Shown here: positions 3,772 to 28,847 of the stretch, in pieces | Numbering within the stretch: position 1 is the first letter of the stretch | Layout of the letters: the number at the start of each line of letters is the position of its first letter | Source of the DNA: Candidatus Woesearchaeota archaeon | GTDB lineage: Archaea > Nanobdellota > Nanobdellia > Woesearchaeales > ARS49 | Direction: 5' to 3' | Length of the DNA: 64,000 nucleotides | NCBI GenBank assembly: GCA_017609645.1 | Contig: JAFCDQ010000001.1 | Coordinates: 62,001-126,000, forward strand | Notes under the pieces: model-generated | What the model was told of the DNA's origin: nothing | What the model saw: only the letters and a program-made list of their open reading frames with translations | Database searches by the model: none | Translations under genes and position numbers: made by a program

Positions 3772-4566
3772 ATGTATGAAAAACTTGCAGAATCATTGTA
3801 TAACTTTGAAATTAGTTGGCATACTTTAGTTAATTATTCTAAACAAACTGATATTGATACTAATGAGAAAAAAATAATCAAAGATATTGTTGAATCCGAA
3901 GGTCATAATGTAACTGATACAGTTTCAAATTTAGAAAACAGAATTGAAATAATTCATAAAACTGCAGAAAAACTTAGAGAAATAGTTGATGCAACTGATA
4001 AGAAAAAAGATTTACTATATGAAGGCTATAATGAAATCTCTAAATTCTTATATGAAACTGCAGGACCTGCAGGAGATGACATACTTACAAAACCAACATT
4101 AGGAAATAATTTACTGGTTGCAAAAGAAAATTTAATTGATGATTTAATAGAAGATGAACTTACGCTTCATACTCAAGCAAGTATAAATGATGCGAGAACT
4201 ATGGTTGGAACTCCTGCTCAATATCAAGAAAAAGTATTTGATCATCTTACAGGAATTTTAAAAGACGTAAAAGACAAAGGTGAAGATCCTTTAGCAAATG
4301 AAGAATTCATGCAATTTGCTTCATTATATGGTATGGGAAGTCTTGGTCGAAAAAGTCCATATGAAGCAAGATTAGCAACTACATTAAAATTATATGAAGA
4401 TGAACACATAGACCATGATCTGTTCATAAGACTTCACAAAACTTTAAACAGCATTACTAACGGAATGGATAAATTACAAAAACATTATTTAAGCAAAATA
4501 AAACTTAATGGCATACAAGAAATGCAGAAAAATGCTGAAGATTTACTAAAAAGATTAGGGCACTAA
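3772..4566 (+). CDS. Hypothetical helical protein
   Basis: A 264-aa acidic protein predicted almost entirely alpha-helical, with no signal peptide, membrane segment or Cys cluster. I do not recognise a family. GAGGT lies 10 bp before the ATG and a strong CGAAAGG-TTTATATA promoter lies about 50 bp upstream. The promoter belongs to the palindrome-containing set described here, which links it to other orphan and surface genes. Its last 12 bases overlap the convergent membrane gene at 4555-5520. Function unknown; the sequence looks like a normal, intact coding region. Confidence 0.8.
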   Translation: MYEKLAESLYNFEISWHTLVNYSKQTDIDTNEKKIIKDIVESEGHNVTDTVSNLENRIEIIHKTAEKLREIVDATDKKKDLLYEGYNEISKFLYETAGPAGDDILTKPTLGNNLLVAKENLIDDLIEDELTLHTQASINDARTMVGTPAQYQEKVFDHLTGILKDVKDKGEDPLANEEFMQFASLYGMGSLGRKSPYEARLATTLKLYEDEHIDHDLFIRLHKTLNSITNGMDKLQKHYLSKIKLNGIQEMQKNAEDLLKRLGH

Positions 4567-5520
4567 AGCAATAATTTCTTCTTTCTTTTTTGTTAAAAAT
4601 ATAATTAATTGTTCTTTTGTTTTATCTAAATCAAAAGCAGGATCAGTAACATCAATAGCAGCACGATCAACTAATAATTTATAACAATCATCCATTTTTT
4701 CAATAACATCCTTAAGCAAATCAACACCAATTTTTGAATAAAGATCTTTTACTGATTTTATGGCAGTTAGTAAATGATGAGAAAGACCGGGAAGCTCTTT
4801 TTTAAAAACATTTTTTTCAGGAATATTTTTAATTATATCTGCGAAATCAGCACAAACTTGAGCTGCCTGCTTTGCAAAATCTACGGCTATTTCTTCATTC
4901 TTTTTTTTCGTTTCTTCATCATCATCTTTTTTAGGATCTTTAGGATCTTTAGGATCTTTAGGATCTTTAGGATCTTTAGGATCTTTCATCTTCTTTAACT
5001 CATCTCTTCTCAACCAAATTAACAAGAAAACAAACAAAGCAATCAGCACAATAATTAGAGCATAATCAAAAACTTCTTTAGCAGACTTGCCAATATTCTT
5101 TCCAACAGGCATAGTTCTAACAAACATAGCAATAACAAAAATAGCTAAAATAATGATAACAATCCATTTAAGCCATTTGAATTTTGTTTTATCTCCATTT
5201 TTTTTCTCTTTGAAAAGCAAACTTATAGCAGGAATAAAAATAATCAAACCTAATAATAATATTAAAGCCCAAGCTAAACCGCCTGACAACAAAACTTCAA
5301 GATTTAAACCAAAAGAAAACTGAAGCACAAGAGCTAAAATAACTCCTAATACTGCTGCCATTATCCTTCTAATACGCAAAACTTTATCTTCTTTATTTCT
5401 TAGCCAAGTTTCAGGCATAGGAATAATGCTTACCAGAAAAATAAGAATTGAAGCGTAAACAACACTGTCAACAATAACAGGAAGTATAGGACTTGCATAA
5501 TATAAAGCTCTAAGAGTCAT
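4555..5520 (-). CDS. Multi-pass membrane protein with Lys-Asp-Pro linker
   Basis: A 321-aa protein with about five hydrophobic helices (near residues 8-33, 51-72, 79-101, 115-135 and 148-167), then a positively charged stop (LRRDELKK), six tandem KDP units, an acidic/basic patch and a helical C-terminal domain of about 120 residues that is probably cytoplasmic. The KDP units come from six perfect 9-bp repeats at 4933-4986. No catalytic motif is visible and I do not recognise the family. It lies among orphan surface genes, convergent with the 3772 gene and divergent from the 5654-9463 operon. The linker looks like a flexible spacer prone to length change. Confidence 0.75.
   Translation of the reverse strand: MTLRALYYASPILPVIVDSVVYASILIFLVSIIPMPETWLRNKEDKVLRIRRIMAAVLGVILALVLQFSFGLNLEVLLSGGLAWALILLLGLIIFIPAISLLFKEKKNGDKTKFKWLKWIVIIILAIFVIAMFVRTMPVGKNIGKSAKEVFDYALIIVLIALFVFLLIWLRRDELKKMKDPKDPKDPKDPKDPKDPKKDDDEETKKKNEEIAVDFAKQAAQVCADFADIIKNIPEKNVFKKELPGLSHHLLTAIKSVKDLYSKIGVDLLKDVIEKMDDCYKLLVDRAAIDVTDPAFDLDKTKEQLIIFLTKKKEEIIALVP
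4933..4986 (+). repeat. Six perfect 9-bp tandem repeats (AGGATCTTT)
   Basis: Six identical in-frame AGGATCTTT units lie inside the 4555-5520 gene and encode KDP repeats on the minus strand. Perfect identity including third codon positions indicates recent slippage-type expansion rather than old selected repeats. Confidence 0.97.
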
Positions 5521-9789: not shown

Positions 9790-10533
9790 ATGGCAGAAAA
9801 AAGAGGAAATAAAGACATTCAACTTTGGAAAAAGCCAAAGAATGTAACAATAATAGAAGGATTTCCTGGATTTGGGCTGGTAGCCACAATCACAACAGGA
9901 TACTTGATAGAACATCTTAAATGCGAACAAATAGGCAGTGTATATTTTGAGGATGCCGCACCAACATTAGCAGTTCATAAAAACAAAATGATAGATCCAA
10001 TTGGCATCTATTACAATAAAGCAAAAAATCTAATCATAATACATGCTATAACAAGCGCACAAGGCCTTGAATGGAAAGCAGCACAAGCAATATTAGACAT
10101 AGCAAACCAATTAACTGCTAAAGAAATAATCAGCATAGAAGGAGTCGGAAGCAAAGAAAAAAGCGAAAGAGGATTCCATTACACTCAAAATCAAAAAGCA
10201 AGCAAAAGATTACAAAAATTAGGAATAGATGAATTAGGAGAAGGAATTATCGTCGGTGTAACAAGCGCTTTGATGTTAAGATTAAAGAGAAACAAGATGC
10301 CAATGACCTGCTTATTTGCAGAAACACATTCACAGCTGCCTGATAGTCGAGCAGCAGCAAAAGTAATTGAAATGCTCGACGGTTATTTAGGATTAAAAGT
10401 AGACTTTAAACCATTGTTAAAAGAAGCAGCAGAGTTTGAGAAAAAACTAAAAGGAATCGCAACAGACTTTCAAAAAACAGAAAAACAACAAGGGAAAAAA
10501 TGTTCTGGCAAGCATTTTGGCTATATTAGATAA
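9790..10533 (+). CDS. PAC2 family protein (proteasome assembly chaperone-like)
   Basis: A 247-aa protein of the archaeal PAC2/PbaA-like family. Diagnostic features are the N-terminal IIEGFPGFGLVATITTGYLI, the central LIIIHAIT and IISIEGVGS strands, and GIIVGVTSALMLRLKRNKMPMTCLFAETHSQLPDSRAAAKVIEML. Family members act as chaperones that bind conserved C-terminal motifs, including those of proteasome subunits or proteasome-activating ATPases; a Cdc48-type unfoldase is encoded at 43.7 kb. The ATG lies about 20 bp after TATTTAAATAG (9763-9773), so it is nearly leaderless. The C-terminal 40 residues are charged. Family assignment is firm; the client is unknown. Confidence 0.88.
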   Translation: MAEKRGNKDIQLWKKPKNVTIIEGFPGFGLVATITTGYLIEHLKCEQIGSVYFEDAAPTLAVHKNKMIDPIGIYYNKAKNLIIIHAITSAQGLEWKAAQAILDIANQLTAKEIISIEGVGSKEKSERGFHYTQNQKASKRLQKLGIDELGEGIIVGVTSALMLRLKRNKMPMTCLFAETHSQLPDSRAAAKVIEMLDGYLGLKVDFKPLLKEAAEFEKKLKGIATDFQKTEKQQGKKCSGKHFGYIR

Positions 10534-10948
10534 ATAAACTCACTTTTTCTTAATTTTCTTTCTAATTAAAGAATTCTTAAACTTCAGCGAATCTTGAAAA
10601 CTCACTATTGTGAAAAATGAGTTAAAACTGCTGGTGCCTAACTCACTTTTATGTATCAAAAGTCACAGGTCTTATTATGAAAATGTGTAAAAACTCACTA
10701 TTTCTGCTTTATTTCCTTAAAATCCCCTAATCTTTATGTGAAAAGTGAGTTTTCAGTTTTTTTCAAAAAATATTTTTTGATTTAAACTCTCACTTTTTGA
10801 AAATCATTCTTTTAAAATTCCGACAAGATTAAAGTATATAGAATAAAAGATATATTATAAGCTATAGTTCTGAATATTGCATAATGAATGAAAACATTTA
10901 AAAAGGATTGCCAGTTTTTTAATAATTATCGTCGGTGGTGAAGACAAA
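10534..10948 (+). repeat. Repeat-rich spacer A (CTCACTTTT elements)
   Basis: This 415-bp spacer has no credible gene. It contains AACTCACTTTTT (10537-10548), AACTCACTATT (10599-10609) facing AAAATGAGTT (10614-10623) as an inverted pair, AACTCACTTTT (10640-10650), AACTCACTATTT (10692-10703), AAAAGTGAGTTTT (10741-10753) and TCTCACTTTTT (10788-10798): seven copies, five in one orientation. ATTCCGACAA (10817-10826) matches the TTGTCGGAA motif of spacer B. The last 100 bp is A+T-rich with TATA-like runs and a GGTGGTGA Shine-Dalgarno for the gene at 10949. Confidence 0.8.
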
Positions 10949-11311
10949 ATGGTACAAGCTAAATATTATATTGATTTACAAGGTAAAGATTTACCAAAAA
11001 TTATGCCAAAACTAATCCAAGGTATAGAAAATGCAATCAGCACATATCATGCAACAATAACACTTTCTGCGCAATATAATAACAGAAAACAGATTAAAAA
11101 ATTAAGAAAAGGCTTTGTAGAAGAAGATTTCAGGGATTTAAAGGAAACGCCTGAGGGCATTGAATTAACTATCGAGAGCGCTTTTGTCAAAGATGCTGTG
11201 AAAGCTATTTCTGGATCATATAAAGTAACCAAAAAAACTACAAAATATTTTTTAACAGCAGATGAAAACGGAGTCACAAAAGCATTACCTGAAACAGAAA
11301 AAAAAGCTTAG
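10949..11311 (+). CDS. Hypothetical protein within the repeat locus
   Basis: A 120-aa protein with a predicted mixed alpha/beta fold: strand (QAKYYIDL), helix (KIMPKLIQGIENAISTYHAT), strand, helix and two further strands (GIELTIES, KTTKYFLTA). There is no signal or membrane segment. A strong Shine-Dalgarno GGTGGTGA lies about 8 bp before the ATG. It sits between two repeat-rich spacers and in front of three DNA-binding-type genes, which hints at a role at the same locus, but I do not recognise a family and see no nucleic-acid-binding motif. Confidence 0.7.
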   Translation: MVQAKYYIDLQGKDLPKIMPKLIQGIENAISTYHATITLSAQYNNRKQIKKLRKGFVEEDFRDLKETPEGIELTIESAFVKDAVKAISGSYKVTKKTTKYFLTADENGVTKALPETEKKA

Positions 11312-11805
11312 TTTAATTTGTCAGGAATAATCCCCTAATTTAATTAAACTTTAAGGGTTTTATGAATTTTGATGTTGACCCAGGGTTGTTGAAGGGATGT
11401 GGCTTGAAGTCATTTGTCGGAATTAACAGAAAAAGTGGGTGATTATCCCGACGGAGTTCGGAAAATTCCAGAAATGCTGATTTTTTAGGTTTTATGAAAA
11501 TAGTGAGTTGAGAGATGTTGTCGGAAAAATAAACGAAACCTCGCTGCAATACTTAAAGTGTACAAAGAAAACAGCCAAAAAGCTTGCCCTAAGTGTTAGG
11601 AAAAAGAAAAGTCTTCTTAGAAAGAAAATATGAAAGAATTTAGCTTTATCATAGACATTGAAAAAAGACGAGAAAAATAGAAGATTAAAACCTTTAATCA
11701 AAAATAAAAAGTTTTAACTGTCGAAAAAATACGAAAATATTGTCGGAAAAAACACAAAAAATAAAAAACATAAAAGTATTCTAAACAACAAAGAGGTGAA
11801 ATCAA
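11312..11805 (+). repeat. Repeat-bearing spacer B (TTGTCGGAA elements)
   Basis: A 494-bp spacer without a credible gene. TTTGTCGGAATT (11412-11423), GTTGTCGGAAAAAT (11517-11530) and ATTGTCGGAAAAAAC (11739-11753) are direct repeats; CTGTCGAAAAAAT (about 11718-11730) is a degenerate copy and TATCCCGACGGA (about 11444-11455) a partial inverted one. One AGTGAGTTGAG element (about 11502-11512) links it to spacers A and D. AATCCCCTAATT (11329-11340) repeats a 10-bp core of spacer A (10721-10730). The last copies sit just upstream of the start at 11806, which has the Shine-Dalgarno GAGGTGA. Confidence 0.75.
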
Positions 11806-12309
11806 ATGAAAATCCAATTCAAACAACAAGAACCAATCGATAACAGCACAGAAGAGCTAGCAAAAACATTACTCACAAGATTTGGCTTAGTTCCTCGAAA
11901 AAAAGACGCTACAGCAAAATTTCACACACTAGTTCTAGAGCTATATGAAAGAAAAAAACAAGCAAACAGAGAGAGAAAACCAGAACTAGCAGTTATGCCT
12001 GTAGAAGAAATGGGCCTGTTTTCAGGTATCAAAAGACAGACTATGTATGACCATCTGCGAAGATGGCTAGATCTTCAGATATTGAAAAAAACAAGCTTTG
12101 TAGCAAATGGAAAAGTCGTAATAGGATATGAGCTAAATGGCAATAACCTAGAAGGTGCTTTTAGAAAGGCAGAATACGTCGTGAAAAACCACTTAGAACA
12201 AAGCTTTAAACTAATAGAAGAACTTCAGAATGAGATAAAAAAAGAAAAAATAAAAGCTAGCCAAACCAGTGCGTCAGGGGCACGTCCAAACCGACAATAT
12301 TCCCCTTAG
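11806..12309 (+). CDS. Putative winged-helix DNA-binding protein
   Basis: A 167-aa basic protein. Residues about 15-60 are helical; ELAVMPVEEMGLFSGIKRQT followed by MYDHLRRWLDLQILKKTS reads as a helix-turn-helix (recognition helix KRQTMYDHLRRWL, about residues 72-84), then a beta-wing (FVANGKVVIGYEL, about 94-106). The C-terminus is a long charged helix (KAEYVVKNHLEQSFKLIEELQNEIKKEKIK). Shine-Dalgarno GAGGTGA precedes the ATG. TTGTCGGAA repeats lie directly upstream, suggesting self-regulation. The end overlaps the convergent 12257 gene by 53 bp, an unusually long antisense overlap. Confidence 0.72.
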   Translation: MKIQFKQQEPIDNSTEELAKTLLTRFGLVPRKKDATAKFHTLVLELYERKKQANRERKPELAVMPVEEMGLFSGIKRQTMYDHLRRWLDLQILKKTSFVANGKVVIGYELNGNNLEGAFRKAEYVVKNHLEQSFKLIEELQNEIKKEKIKASQTSASGARPNRQYSP

Positions 12310-12781
12310 CTTGCTTTTCCTTAAAAACAGGATCAATCTTAAGCAAACAAGTTCTACCTACAAAACGCTTAATTATAGGAATGCCTTTGCTAACCATCCC
12401 AGAAACCGCAGAAGTAGCCATTTCTCGAGTTAAACCAGATTTCCTGGCAATTTGCTCATAAGTAACAAAAGCAAACTTCTCATTAAGCTCGTAAACAACC
12501 CTAAAAATCTCTTTTTCACGAGAACTTAGAGGAGCAACAGAAAATTTTTGAACAGATTTGCCCTTAATCAAAAGAGTTAATTCATCTACTCTTTCCTGTA
12601 ATTTATCAACTTTTAGAGCTAACTGATTAACAACTTCAAAACTACCCTGGATCTCAGAAGTGTTGTCGTTAATAGCAGATCTATGATCATCTAATTCGCA
12701 CTGAATAGACGATAAAACACCACTAAGTTTGTCCTTAAACACATCACTTATGTTGTCAAATAAAAGTTCTTGTTTCCCCAT
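12257..12781 (-). CDS. Coiled-coil plus winged-helix-like DNA-binding protein
   Basis: A 174-aa protein: an N-terminal helical segment, a coiled coil (IQGSFEVVNQLALKVDKLQE and following heptads, about residues 44-75), then a winged-helix-like domain (about 85-160) with LSSREKEIFRVVYEL, the HTH-like TYEQIARKSGLTREMATSAV and a wing around IIKRFVGRTCLLKI. The ATG at 12781 is preferred over a GTG at 12790, with AGGGGTGG upstream as ribosome binding site. It lies 41 bp downstream of the 12823 gene on the same strand, so they may be co-transcribed. It overlaps the end of the 11806 gene on the other strand. A ROS/MarR-like regulator or replication-associated protein would fit. Confidence 0.72.
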   Translation of the reverse strand: MGKQELLFDNISDVFKDKLSGVLSSIQCELDDHRSAINDNTSEIQGSFEVVNQLALKVDKLQERVDELTLLIKGKSVQKFSVAPLSSREKEIFRVVYELNEKFAFVTYEQIARKSGLTREMATSAVSGMVSKGIPIIKRFVGRTCLLKIDPVFKEKQAKGNIVGLDVPLTHWFG

Positions 12782-12822
12782 TATTACCACCCCTTTGAAA
12801 AGATATAGAAAGAGGAGGAGGT

Positions 12823-13443
12823 TTAAAAGTTTTTTTGTTCACTGAGGGGAAAGCTGTCTTCTGAAGCTAAATACACCTTAATTTTGCCTCTAGAGATGAT
12901 ATTAAGCATGCCCTCATGCTCTAATTCCTCCAAAATCCGATAGAAGGAGCTCTTAGAACACAATCCCTGCTCTTCAACAATCATTTCCCTAAGCTGCAAA
13001 GCACTCACTTTGCTATACTTGTTAACTAAACTAAGTACTAAATTCTTAATGTAATCCTTGCTGCTTCTGGCAATTTTCTTAAGAACTTTTTCACGAATAT
13101 TTGAAACCCGCTCAGGCTGTTGAATTTGAGGTCTAGAAGGCTTGTAATCAAGAAGATTGACTTTTTGCTCAATCATCCTCAAGCGATCCATCACATTATC
13201 AAAGCTGTAATATGAATCAACCAAGGCCTTGAATTCTTCCCTTGTTTTAGGTATTTTATCGACGCTAAACTTCAATTCAGCAATCTCACTTCCCTGCCTT
13301 TTAAGCGTCTCATCTTGTTCACGGATGAAATCCAAAAGATGCTGATTGAAGCGATAGAAGTAGTAAAGCCATTCATGAACCACTGAAAAATCTTCACGAA
13401 CCTTATCAAAACCTTGCTGAACAACTCTTTTTTTCAAGAACAT
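12823..13443 (-). CDS. Coiled-coil plus winged-helix-like DNA-binding protein
   Basis: A 206-aa protein: N-terminal helices (VHEWLYYFYRFNQHLLDFIR), a coiled coil (about residues 43-100), a linker, then a C-terminal winged-helix-like domain (about 125-200) with LVNKYSKVSALQLREMIVEE and the recognition segment LCSKSSFYRILEELEHEGML followed by a short wing (NIISRGKIKVYLA). Its ATG at 13443 lies about 25 bp after a minus-strand TATA (CTTTTTATATTG, about 13464-13475). The ATTCCCAA repeats begin 8 bp upstream of that TATA, so self-regulation or repeat binding by this protein is a direct hypothesis. Family not recognised. Confidence 0.74.
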   Translation of the reverse strand: MFLKKRVVQQGFDKVREDFSVVHEWLYYFYRFNQHLLDFIREQDETLKRQGSEIAELKFSVDKIPKTREEFKALVDSYYSFDNVMDRLRMIEQKVNLLDYKPSRPQIQQPERVSNIREKVLKKIARSSKDYIKNLVLSLVNKYSKVSALQLREMIVEEQGLCSKSSFYRILEELEHEGMLNIISRGKIKVYLASEDSFPLSEQKNF

Positions 13444-13483
13444 AACCCAAGTAAACTAAGTGCAATATAAAAAGCTTTCTACT

Positions 13484-13747
13484 TTTGGGATGTTCCCAGG
13501 ACATTCCCAATACGTTCCTGGGACTATACAGAGACTGGGAATTTGGGACTATCCGACAGGAATATAGTGGGAATAAGACATTCCCAAAGCTAAAATAGGA
13601 CATTCCCAAGGCAAAGTTGGGAATATCAGAAAATTTTAAATAAAGTAAGTGTTTTTTATCAAATATTGGCTTAAATTGGGTTGTAATTTGCCAATATCGC
13701 ACCTCATTCCCAAGGGGAATATTGGGAATGAGATTTGGGAATGACAT
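13484..13747 (+). repeat. Iteron-like cluster of ATTCCCAA / TTGGGAAT
   Basis: About twelve full or near copies of an ATTCCCAA box in both orientations in 264 bp: TTTGGGA/GTTCCCAG (13484-13499), ACATTCCCAA (13501-13510), GTTCCTGGGA (13514-13523), CTGGGAAT (13535-13542), GTGGGAAT (13567-13574), ACATTCCCAAA (13578-13588), ACATTCCCAAG (13600-13610), GTTGGGAAT (13616-13624), an 11-bp perfect inverted repeat CTCATTCCCAA (13703-13713) / TTGGGAATGAG (13722-13732), and TTTGGGAATGA (13734-13744). It lies upstream of the winged-helix gene starting at 13443. Confidence 0.9.
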
Positions 13748-14238
13748 CAAAGTAAAGAAAAAAGAAACAAATCGATGCAAGGATATGATGTTTAAGATTT
13801 GATATAAAATATCAAATTTTTTCAAATATTGCACCCCTAGAGCAGGGAAATGGACTAAAATAATAGGGTTGTAAAAAGGGCAGATTTTTGAATAAATCAC
13901 AGAGATTATGTGAAAATGCCCGAATACTCTAGAAAAAGTGAGAGTTGTGACAAGGCAGGATTTTGGGGCTGAAGAATGAAAAAAGCACTGAAAAACAAGA
14001 GATTATGTGAAAAACCCAAAAAACAATGAAAAAAGTGAGTGAATTGAATATAGTTGATTTGAAGTGTGAGACAAAAAAGAAATAGCCCCCTAGAAAGTGA
14101 GTTTAGACCAAGGAAGTGAGACAAAAAAGCAATAATTGATTGTTTTATCGACGAAAAAACAAAATAAATTTAAAAGAAACATTTAAAAAAGAAAAGCTAA
14201 TATCAGCTAAAAGTAAACAAAACAAATGGTGCCTAACT
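13748..14238 (+). repeat. Repeat-rich spacer D (AAGTGAG elements, A+T palindrome)
   Basis: No credible gene. ATTTGATAT (13797-13805) and ATATCAAAT (13809-13817) form a perfect 9-bp-arm palindrome in an A+T-rich stretch. Five AAGTGAG-type elements all face one way: 13933-13944, 14029-14041, 14062-14072, 14093-14104, 14112-14120; two are part of the 14-bp direct repeat GTGAGACAAAAAAG (14066-14079 and 14116-14129, 50 bp apart). AGAGATTATGTGAAAA occurs twice (about 13900 and 13998). The orientation is opposite to most CTCACTTTT elements of spacer A. The end holds the TATA-like ACATTTAAAAAAG and GGTG of rpoL. Confidence 0.78.
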
Positions 14239-14514
14239 ATGGAAATAAAAATTCTTGAAGATAAAAAAAACAAACTAATATTTGAAATGAAAGGAGAAGA
14301 TCATACAATCGCGAATCTTCTTAGAAAAGAACTATGGTCTGATAGTCATGTAAAAGGGGCTGCTTATAACATAGAACATCCTCTAGTAGGAGTTCCTAAA
14401 TTTGTTCTACAAACAGATGGCGAAGATCCAAGAAAAGTGCTAAAAACAGCAACAAAAAGAATACAAAAGCAGCTTGCCAAAACTAAGGATGAAATAAAAG
14501 CAAAGGTAAGATGA
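14239..14514 (+). CDS. rpoL: DNA-directed RNA polymerase subunit L
   Basis: A 91-aa homologue of eukaryotic Rpb11/Rpc19, which pairs with subunit D to form the assembly platform of archaeal RNA polymerase. Diagnostic is the alpha-like dimerisation motif GEDHTIANLLRKELW (residues about 18-32), followed by HVKGAAYNIEHPLVGVPKFVLQT and a basic C-terminal helix. The frame is open upstream to a TTG at 14140, but the family length and the N-terminus MEIKILED point to the ATG at 14239. The next gene starts 4 bp after the stop. Assignment is firm. Confidence 0.96.
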   Translation: MEIKILEDKKNKLIFEMKGEDHTIANLLRKELWSDSHVKGAAYNIEHPLVGVPKFVLQTDGEDPRKVLKTATKRIQKQLAKTKDEIKAKVR

Positions 14515-27850: not shown

Positions 27851-28073
27851 ATAAAAGTATAGATTTATTAAATCAAAAAAAAGGTGATATAATGAAAAAA
27901 ATATTTAATATTTTACTGATATTATCGCTGCTATTAGTAGTAGTTGGTTGCACTCAAGGAGTAGGAGAAGCTAGAAGAATGCGTCCTTTATCTCAAGACG
28001 CGATACCAGAACGCTATGCTCCAACAACACTTGAATCTCCTTCAACAATAAAATCGCTTCCAACTCCTCCAAT

Positions 28074-28293
28074 AAAAAAGTGTGCTTGTAATGATATTTG
28101 TTCTTTAACTGAATCACAAAAAACCATAATTGTTTGTAACAATAGAGAATATGAAGCTGAAGTTCTAGTAATTTCTGAAACAAGCCAAAGCACTAAATTA
28201 CACAAATATTGCAGACGGATCCCGCATCATCATCAAATATATCGACATAAAAAAGAACATCGTTCATTTTGTTCTGCAACCTACAATAAAACC
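28074..28293 (+). repeat. Direct repeat, copy 1 (carries the 8-bp deletion)
   Basis: Nearly identical to 28312-28539 at a 238-bp offset: over the first 126 bp there is one mismatch, then an 8-bp gap at 28199/28200, then about 90 bp with roughly six mismatches clustered near 28230. With the 8 bp restored the unit is 246 bp (82 codons). Confidence 0.95.
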
Positions 28294-28311
28294 ACTGCCA
28301 CCTCCACCACT

Positions 28312-28539
28312 AAAAAAGTGTGATTGTAATGATATTTGTTCTTTAACTGAATCACAAAAAACCATAATTGTTTGTAACAATAGAGAATATGAAGCTGAAG
28401 TTCTAGTAATTTCTGAAACAAGCCAAAGCACTAAATTCGGTGAGAACACAAATATTGCAGACGGATCCCGCATTTTCATTAAGTATATTGACATAAAAAA
28501 GAACATCGTTCATTTTGTTCTGCAACCTACAATACAACC
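28312..28539 (+). repeat. Direct repeat, copy 2 (full length)
   Basis: Second copy of the module in the lipoprotein gene, containing CGGTGAGA at 28438-28445 that copy 1 lacks. It reads in frame into the third, diverged module that ends at 28831. Confidence 0.95.
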
Positions 28540-28847
28540 TTTACCGCCTGCACCTAAACAATGCAAACTAAATGACTTGCATGCCATACTTACAGTAGGT
28601 GACAGAGAAATTTATAGAGTAGGAAAAACAGAATATGACGTAAATCTTTTAGCAATAGGCATGGGAAGTACTGCAAAATTCAGAGTAAATGGCGAAATTC
28701 TAGATACTTTAGAACAAGGAGATGGTACTAAACTGGCTGACGGCTCAATATTTTTTGTGACGGAAGTGCACCAAATTAGTAAAGATATAGAAAAACCTTT
28801 GGCAGCATTTTTAATAGTCAACAGCAATTAATTTATTTTTTTTCTTT

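Follow-up and report, generated by a model that had tools for sequence, protein, structure and literature searches.

The ParR/parC and TubR/tubC partition systems have short, helically phased repeats upstream of the operon of the centromere-binding protein, with cooperative binding and autoregulation. TubR is a winged-helix protein, and the two loci encode a nucleoside triphosphatase (NTPase), ParM and TubZ, respectively. Here, we describe a chromosomal locus of a Candidatus Woesearchaeota archaeon (GenBank assembly GCA_017609645.1), located at positions 10534–14238 of the window, the 64,000-nucleotide stretch of contig JAFCDQ010000001.1 (62,001–126,000) that was analyzed. It carries three genes, wH3, P4 and P5, whose predicted products are helix-turn-helix (HTH) or winged-helix proteins and which are embedded in short repeats (motifs M1 to M6). 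The original prediction, made from the window alone, was a replication origin, a partition locus or a self-regulated nucleoprotein site.

Proteins known to bind repeats beside their own genes include AspA, SegB and plasmid centromere proteins (PMC5120986). AspA of Sulfolobus pNOB8 is a dimeric winged-helix protein that binds one 23-bp palindrome upstream of its own gene and spreads over >200 bp; aspA overlaps parB, which overlaps parA (PMC5120986). In SegAB of Sulfolobus, which is chromosomal, palindromic sites recognized by the DNA-binding protein precede the cassette that encodes it, and whether these sites are a centromere or an operator is undecided (PMC5120986). The locus described here shares with partition systems in general a DNA-binding gene (P5) beside its own repeated, centromere-like sites (M1). 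As in AspA-ParB-ParA, an archaeal winged-helix gene lies near its own upstream sites; however, its arrays are long and phased, its three HTH proteins are unrelated to each other, and ParB and ParA are both absent. It is also an archaeal chromosomal locus like SegAB, with the same ambiguity between centromere and operator, but segB is paired with the ParA-like segA and no such gene is found here. Although TubR is among the weak fold matches of P5, the locus differs from ParR/parC and TubR/tubC in being chromosomal, in having polar flanks and in the absence of an NTPase. No ParA/ParM/TubZ/SegA-type NTPase was found in the cassette or among its recurrent neighbors (an unlinked NTPase was not searched for). 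The partition reading is thus possible by analogy, but we do not classify the locus as a partition system because the cassette holds no NTPase gene.

Archaeal replication origins offer another parallel. Origin recognition box (ORB) elements are bound with a defined polarity, and both WhiP-oriC3 and Orc1/Cdc6-ORB origins have an initiator-type gene by A+T-rich DNA with inverted polar repeats (PMC4010727, PMC12141716), a layout that the locus, with its outward M4 flanks, may share. The pair formed by wH3 and its adjacent repeat array (M5) resembles a WhiP-type pair in this respect; wH3 could be assigned to no family by Pfam or PDB profile searches. Unlike Orc1/Cdc6-ORB origins, the locus has no nearby Orc1/Cdc6 and no skew switch, and its M4 sites run into genes; no ORB-like sequence was recognized by eye. 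Like the locus, the polar fork or transcription barriers Tus-Ter and RTP-Ter are flanked by non-palindromic polar sites of opposing orientation, but skew does not place the locus at a terminus. The winged helix and C-terminal helix of wH3 match RTP, a weak and unspecific likeness, as many winged helices score alike. No description of the locus was found in the literature searched. The locus lacks at least one defining property of every known family with which it was compared; its function could still make it a variant of a partition system.

Conservation, proteins and motif arrays

The order wH3(+), P4(-), P5(-) is identical in 17/17 loci of the same family, and nearly all motifs are kept. P5 is present in 19 of the 26 genomes of this family and P4 in 18, each reaching 15/16 among the good ones. 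Across the order, wH3 occurs as a single copy in 74/353 genomes, P5 in 177/353 and P4 in 290/353 (160/180 good ones), and weaker matches to the C-terminal part of P4 extend class-wide (246/378). Recurrent neighbors of wH3 are PAC2 on the left and P4, a METTL5-like methylase (named from its sequence) and RpoL on the right, and PAC2-wH3-P4 synteny spans the whole order (Candidatus Woesearchaeota). Since parts of the cassette and its neighbors recur across the order, the locus is, as judged from gene content and order, old and vertically inherited. The repeats are also strongly conserved in relatives, which the original prediction had named as a sign in its favor. We consider the structure and conservation of the locus, as deduced from these comparisons, to be almost certain.

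The original prediction of three winged-helix-like proteins stands for wH3 and P5, which were modeled with AlphaFold2. The wH3 model (predicted local distance difference test score, pLDDT, 85.6) contains a winged helix at residues ~39–110 followed by a long C-terminal helix (115–156), with an invariant HTH core, RQTMY..L.RW; sequence identity to the window protein is 59–71% in 14 same-family relatives (alignment A1). The P5 model (pLDDT 83.2) has a long N-terminal coiled coil (helix 2–62) and a C-terminal winged helix (~115–193), which includes the invariant segment C-S-x-S-x-FYR. For P4, analyzed from its sequence, the assignment consists of weak HTH profile matches only, with an N-terminal coiled-coil-like region preceding the C-terminal HTH. 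Thus, the predicted layout of a coiled coil followed by a C-terminal HTH holds for P4 and P5, whereas in wH3 the order is reversed, with the winged helix first. Structural matches of wH3 are to generic winged helices including TFE, MarR and RTP, and those of P5 are weak (Hop2, BlaI, TubR and F-93), all with E >0.001. Neither Pfam nor NCBIfam placed any of the three proteins in a family above threshold, and PHROGs matches were not convincing (hits were sub-threshold or coiled-coil noise), and PDB profile searches returned coiled-coil noise without naming a family. Common ancestry of the three proteins was rejected, as the profile of P5 matched neither that of P4 nor that of wH3 significantly.

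The original prediction of at least three repeat families in the spacers is borne out by four position-specific motif families, and three repeated words were found beyond chance. Compared with 500 dinucleotide-preserving shuffles, the two outer spacers together hold 10 copies of AGTGAG (0.33 in shuffles, maximum 3 of 500), the spacer at 13444–14238 holds 15 of GGGA[CAT] (5.0 in shuffles, maximum 11), and that at 11312–11805 holds 3 of TGTCGG (0.08 in shuffles). All 10 AAGTGAG and all 6 AAAAGTGAG of the 64-kb window lie within the locus. The longer words hardly occur elsewhere in the 1.125-Mb genome: the locus holds 2/2 copies of AAAAAGTGAGAGTT, 2/2 of GGTGCCTAACT and 4/6 of TTGTCGGAA. For TTGGGAAT, the count is 7/51. 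In family loci, M3 (GTGCCTAA) is located near both borders, and the palindrome M2 (TTTATCGACGATAAA) is interspersed in the M1 array of relatives. M2 as an order-wide operator of P4 was unconvincing by eye.

M1 consists of TGGGAC/GTCCCA half-sites upstream of P5; TGGGACTA, for example, occurs 45 times in the 18 loci (0.14 expected). Spacings between half-sites peak at 11, 22, 33, 44, 55 and 66 bp on the same strand, whereas those between opposite strands peak at 6, 17 and 28 bp and at 5, 16, 27, 38 and 49 bp; the period is 11.0 bp and can be followed up to 66 bp. Each array contains 20–35 phased half-sites over 300–400 bp. A 16-base M1 pattern has 30 matches in 30 genomes, 23 of them beside P5 or a P5 paralogue, among them matches in genomes that lack wH3 (G042, G218, G239 and G346). 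In G239, where motif positions, as in other complete relatives, come from pattern matches, P5 has the opposite orientation to that in the family with respect to P4, and the M1 array is found on its 3' side, followed by M4 sites; position in the locus thus seems to be kept, not position at the promoter. This case, seen in one genome, suggests that the place of the array in the locus outweighs its place at the P5 promoter.

M5 (TGTCGGGAT/TGTCGGAA) lies upstream of wH3, where TGTCGGGAT occurs 20 times in the 18 loci (0.12 expected), at ordered positions that are alignable across genera. Among 35 loci, nearly all from other families, TGTCGGRA occurs 28 times upstream of wH3 (0.7 expected), and the reversed word does not occur (0). 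Based on this co-occurrence, M1 with P5 and M5 with wH3 are very probably cognate pairs. A P5 paralogue in G042 (C1:379737-380066) has its own M1 pattern 65 bp upstream (C1:379672); P5-like proteins and cognate arrays may form a wider family. A tight cluster of three M1 matches away from the P5 locus (G017:C21:111258-111284) is possibly a second target.

M4, AAAAGTGAG(AGTT), is found at both borders and points outward, with 3–7 sites per side over ~1 kb that extend into genes. In the 18 loci, all 61 copies of AAGTGAG in the 1200 bp to the right of P5 are on the '+' strand (0 on the '-' strand), and those to the left of wH3 comprise 35 on the '-' and 16 on the '+' strand. Order-wide around wH3, AAAGTGAG shows the same arrangement: at +500..+1500 there are 39 '+' and 0 '-' copies, and at -2500..-500 there are 24 '-' and 5 '+' copies; its density falls to ~0.02 per kb beyond 4 kb of wH3, and two permuted words are flat. 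The 13-mer AAAAGTGAGNGTT has 77 matches in 40 genomes, compared to 14 for a reversed-pattern control; 53 of the 77 are no more than ~7 kb away from the locus, and of these 53, 49 point outward. In the single-contig relative G090 (1.16 Mb), the densest AAAGTGAG window is the wH3 locus, again outward. There, P4 is located 588 kb from wH3 with no AAAGTGAG nearby, and one stray copy lies near orc1; M4 as a site of P4 or of Orc1 was rejected for this genome.

M4 runs on into neighboring genes, including six RsmE genes (named from their sequence). The two M4-encoded Lys-Val pairs show no synonymous change, whereas other conserved Val columns in these genes use 3–4 codons, which is direct evidence, at the level of codon usage, that M4 is held at the DNA level inside coding sequence. 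Relative to genes, 19 M4 sites are sense, 9 antisense and 45 intergenic, so that M4 appears tied to the locus and not to the direction of transcription. A P5-like paralogue that is not at the wH3 locus contains or is flanked by three M4 13-mers (G191:C2:506324-507294); M4 may accompany P5-like genes too.

Strand skew and the origin question

The origin reading is not supported. The original prediction correctly stated that no Orc1/Cdc6 gene adjoins the locus: a clear orc1/cdc6 lies at C1:183.7 kb and the locus at 72.5–76.2 kb, ~110 kb apart, and orc1 is beside the locus in 0/14 other locus-bearing genomes searched. The skew inflection it looked for is absent, with coding-corrected AT skew flat across the locus in its own genome. 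In G090, AT breakpoints are near 450 kb, close to orc1 (468 kb), and near 90 kb, and GC breakpoints are near 635 and 1040 kb; neither AT nor GC skew breaks at the locus (788 kb). Because skew in G090 is weak, more weight was placed on a pooled test of the 27 loci with both flanks. The AT sign is the same on both sides in 23/27, flanks correlate with r = 0.77 (AT) and 0.82 (GC), and the paired AT difference, left versus right, is 2.3 +/- 8.1 per kb. As a bidirectional origin or terminus would switch the sign, these results argue against both. An origin as the principal explanation was rejected on the basis of the orc1 position and the three skew tests; a rarely used origin may still be present at the locus.

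Elsewhere on C1 of the same genome, a strongly positive coding-corrected AT skew over the first ~460 kb gives way to a flat profile, making the region at ~460 kb a candidate origin or terminus that does not coincide with orc1 (184 kb).

Features of the locus in the window

Gene coordinates of wH3, P4 and P5 and the three spacer lengths of the original prediction proved exact (Table 1). Its bounds for the locus hold for the window, but the conserved locus of relatives reaches slightly beyond them. The convergent wH3 and P4 genes overlap tail to tail at their 3' ends. The orphan g120 was not recognized in any of the 17 family loci and is therefore probably not a component of the system.

Table 1. 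Features in and around the wH3-P4-P5 locus (positions in the window)
Feature	Position	Strand	Remarks
wH3	11806..12309	+	167 amino acids; A1 alignment, AlphaFold2 model
P4	12257..12781	-	possible GTG start at 12790; order-wide profile matches
P5	12823..13443	-	order-wide profile matches, AlphaFold2 model
M1 array	13487..13741	.	TGGGAC/TGGGAA half-sites and complements; just upstream of P5 start
wH3 upstream spacer	11312..11805	+	494 bp; M5 TGTCGGAA at 11415, 11519, 11741 (+); M6 AATAATCCCCTAAT at 11326
Left border spacer	10534..10948	.	415 bp; outward M4 (AAGTGAG, - strand) at 10539, 10642, 10789
Left border spacer, further sites			inward M4 at 10743 (+); M3 GTGCCTAACT at 10634; M5 at 10818 (-)
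Right spacer	13444..14238		795 bp
Right border, outward M4 (AAGTGAG)	13933..14120	+	sites at 13936, 14033, 14095, 14114
M2 remnant TTATCGACGA	14145..14154	+	relatives: palindrome TTTATCGACGATAAA within M1 array
M3 second copy GTGCCTAACT	14229..14238	+	
g120	10949..11311	+	120-amino-acid orphan in left spacer
PAC2-family gene	9790..10533	+	conserved left neighbor of wH3 across the order; context, no component
RpoL (RNA polymerase Rpb11/L subunit)	14239..14514	+	conserved right neighbor; context

In the relatives L101, L102, L103, L106 and L115, draft contigs break off a few kb or less from the locus, perhaps because its repeats hinder assembly. Two other repeats were noted in the window: a 238-bp unit present 2.2 times with 87% matches at 28045–28575, in the region of a short lipoprotein-like open reading frame, and TTTAGGATC, repeated 6.3 times without mismatch at 4930–4986, which codes for a DPK repeat in a membrane protein (4555–5520).

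Possible functions of the locus

Of the readings in the original prediction, that of a nucleoprotein site, here taken as self-encoded, has good support. We propose that Woesearchaeota have such a site in a single copy on the chromosome, at which wH3, P4 and P5 would act on arrays around their own genes. wH3 would bind M5, while P5, with its long coiled coil and winged helix, would cover the 11-bp-phased M1 array cooperatively, and P4 may join wH3 and P5. Phased binding would build a large complex bordered by the polar M4 sites, which some factor would read directionally. On balance, we favor, with a probability of roughly 0.4, a role as a chromosome-maintenance site, either centromere-like or for loading or organizing, with autoregulation as a by-product and without a role in replication initiation. 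The more specific version, a chromosomal centromere-like or SMC-loading site of DPANN archaea where dedicated winged-helix proteins assemble a nucleoprotein complex on the phased arrays and polar M4 sites direct a translocase or loading factor outward along both arms, seems rather unlikely. The presence of one locus per genome, with a constant three-gene order in family loci, is in favor of a maintenance site, as are the order-wide PAC2-wH3-P4 synteny, motifs that are specific to the locus and do not form a regulon, the polarity of M4 and its retention at the DNA level, the 11.0-bp phasing of M1, the array position in G239 and, against a strand switch, the skew data. Several observations weigh against it: wH3, P4 and P5 are all missing from G004, a 96% complete genome of the same family, and the locus can therefore be lost; wH3 occurs in just 50/180 good genomes of the order; the distance between locus and orc1 is not fixed; the cassette and its recurrent neighbors lack an NTPase gene, as described above; and the family M1 array adjoins the P5 start in an operator-like place, upstream of a TATA-like box.

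The last of these points belongs to the strongest rival, elaborate autoregulation, in which three regulators act at their own promoters through multi-site operators and M4 regulates or insulates neighboring genes, with no function at the chromosome level. M1 directly upstream of the TATA-like box, M5 directly upstream of wH3, and the tracking of each motif with its own gene, which includes the G042 paralogue with M1 65 bp upstream, all fit this explanation. However, the number of phased half-sites and the length of the M1 arrays far exceed the needs of an operator, the G239 array lies 3' of P5, and M4 is strictly polar whatever the gene orientation and is embedded in coding sequence. We regard autoregulation alone as possible but doubtful. 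The strict outward polarity of M4 on both sides could also reflect a polar roadblock or insulator, where a factor bound to M4 halts RNA polymerase or replication forks in one direction and shields the locus. The first M4 in the window directly follows the PAC2 stop codon, and read inward M4 is AACTCTCACTTTTT, a T-tract. Yet M4 does not serve as a general terminator, since AAAGTGAG outside the locus is no commoner than base composition predicts (by estimate, ~46 expected and 30 found in G090), and copies of M4 inside the P4 gene would cut its mRNA short, making a roadblock improbable.

A secondary origin with a winged-helix initiator, like WhiP-oriC3 of Sulfolobus, would account for a winged-helix gene by an A+T-rich spacer, for ordered repeats and for inverted polar flanking sites, and WhiP demonstrates that archaeal origins can do without Orc1 (PMC4010727). 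Given that neither the 27 loci nor the own genome nor G090 shows a skew switch, this is very unlikely. Least probable is a captured plasmid or virus maintenance module or other mobile element: repeat arrays by DNA-binding genes are typical of plasmids and the distribution of wH3 is patchy, but the synteny is vertical and order-wide, the conserved cassette contains no recombinase, and no wH3 or P5 relatives were found in IMG/VR viral contigs (a plasmid collection was not searched). The last result also led us to reject a virus or provirus origin. A global regulon was rejected since the motifs are concentrated at the locus and not found upstream of many genes, as seen in the own genome, G090 and the 30- and 40-genome scans. 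Structured RNA was rejected as well: no Rfam match came near the gathering score, and RNAalifold gave no consensus fold for the wH3 spacer (4 pairs, -1.2 kcal/mol, 741 columns).

As a single-copy site that encodes DNA-binding proteins of its own, the locus offers a concrete test case for how archaea outside Sulfolobus mark, organize and segregate their chromosomes. No more than its sequence is needed to recognize it in many genomes, all belonging to a major uncultured lineage, and the polar M4 motif kept in coding sequence points directly to a DNA-level function that is overlooked by current annotation.

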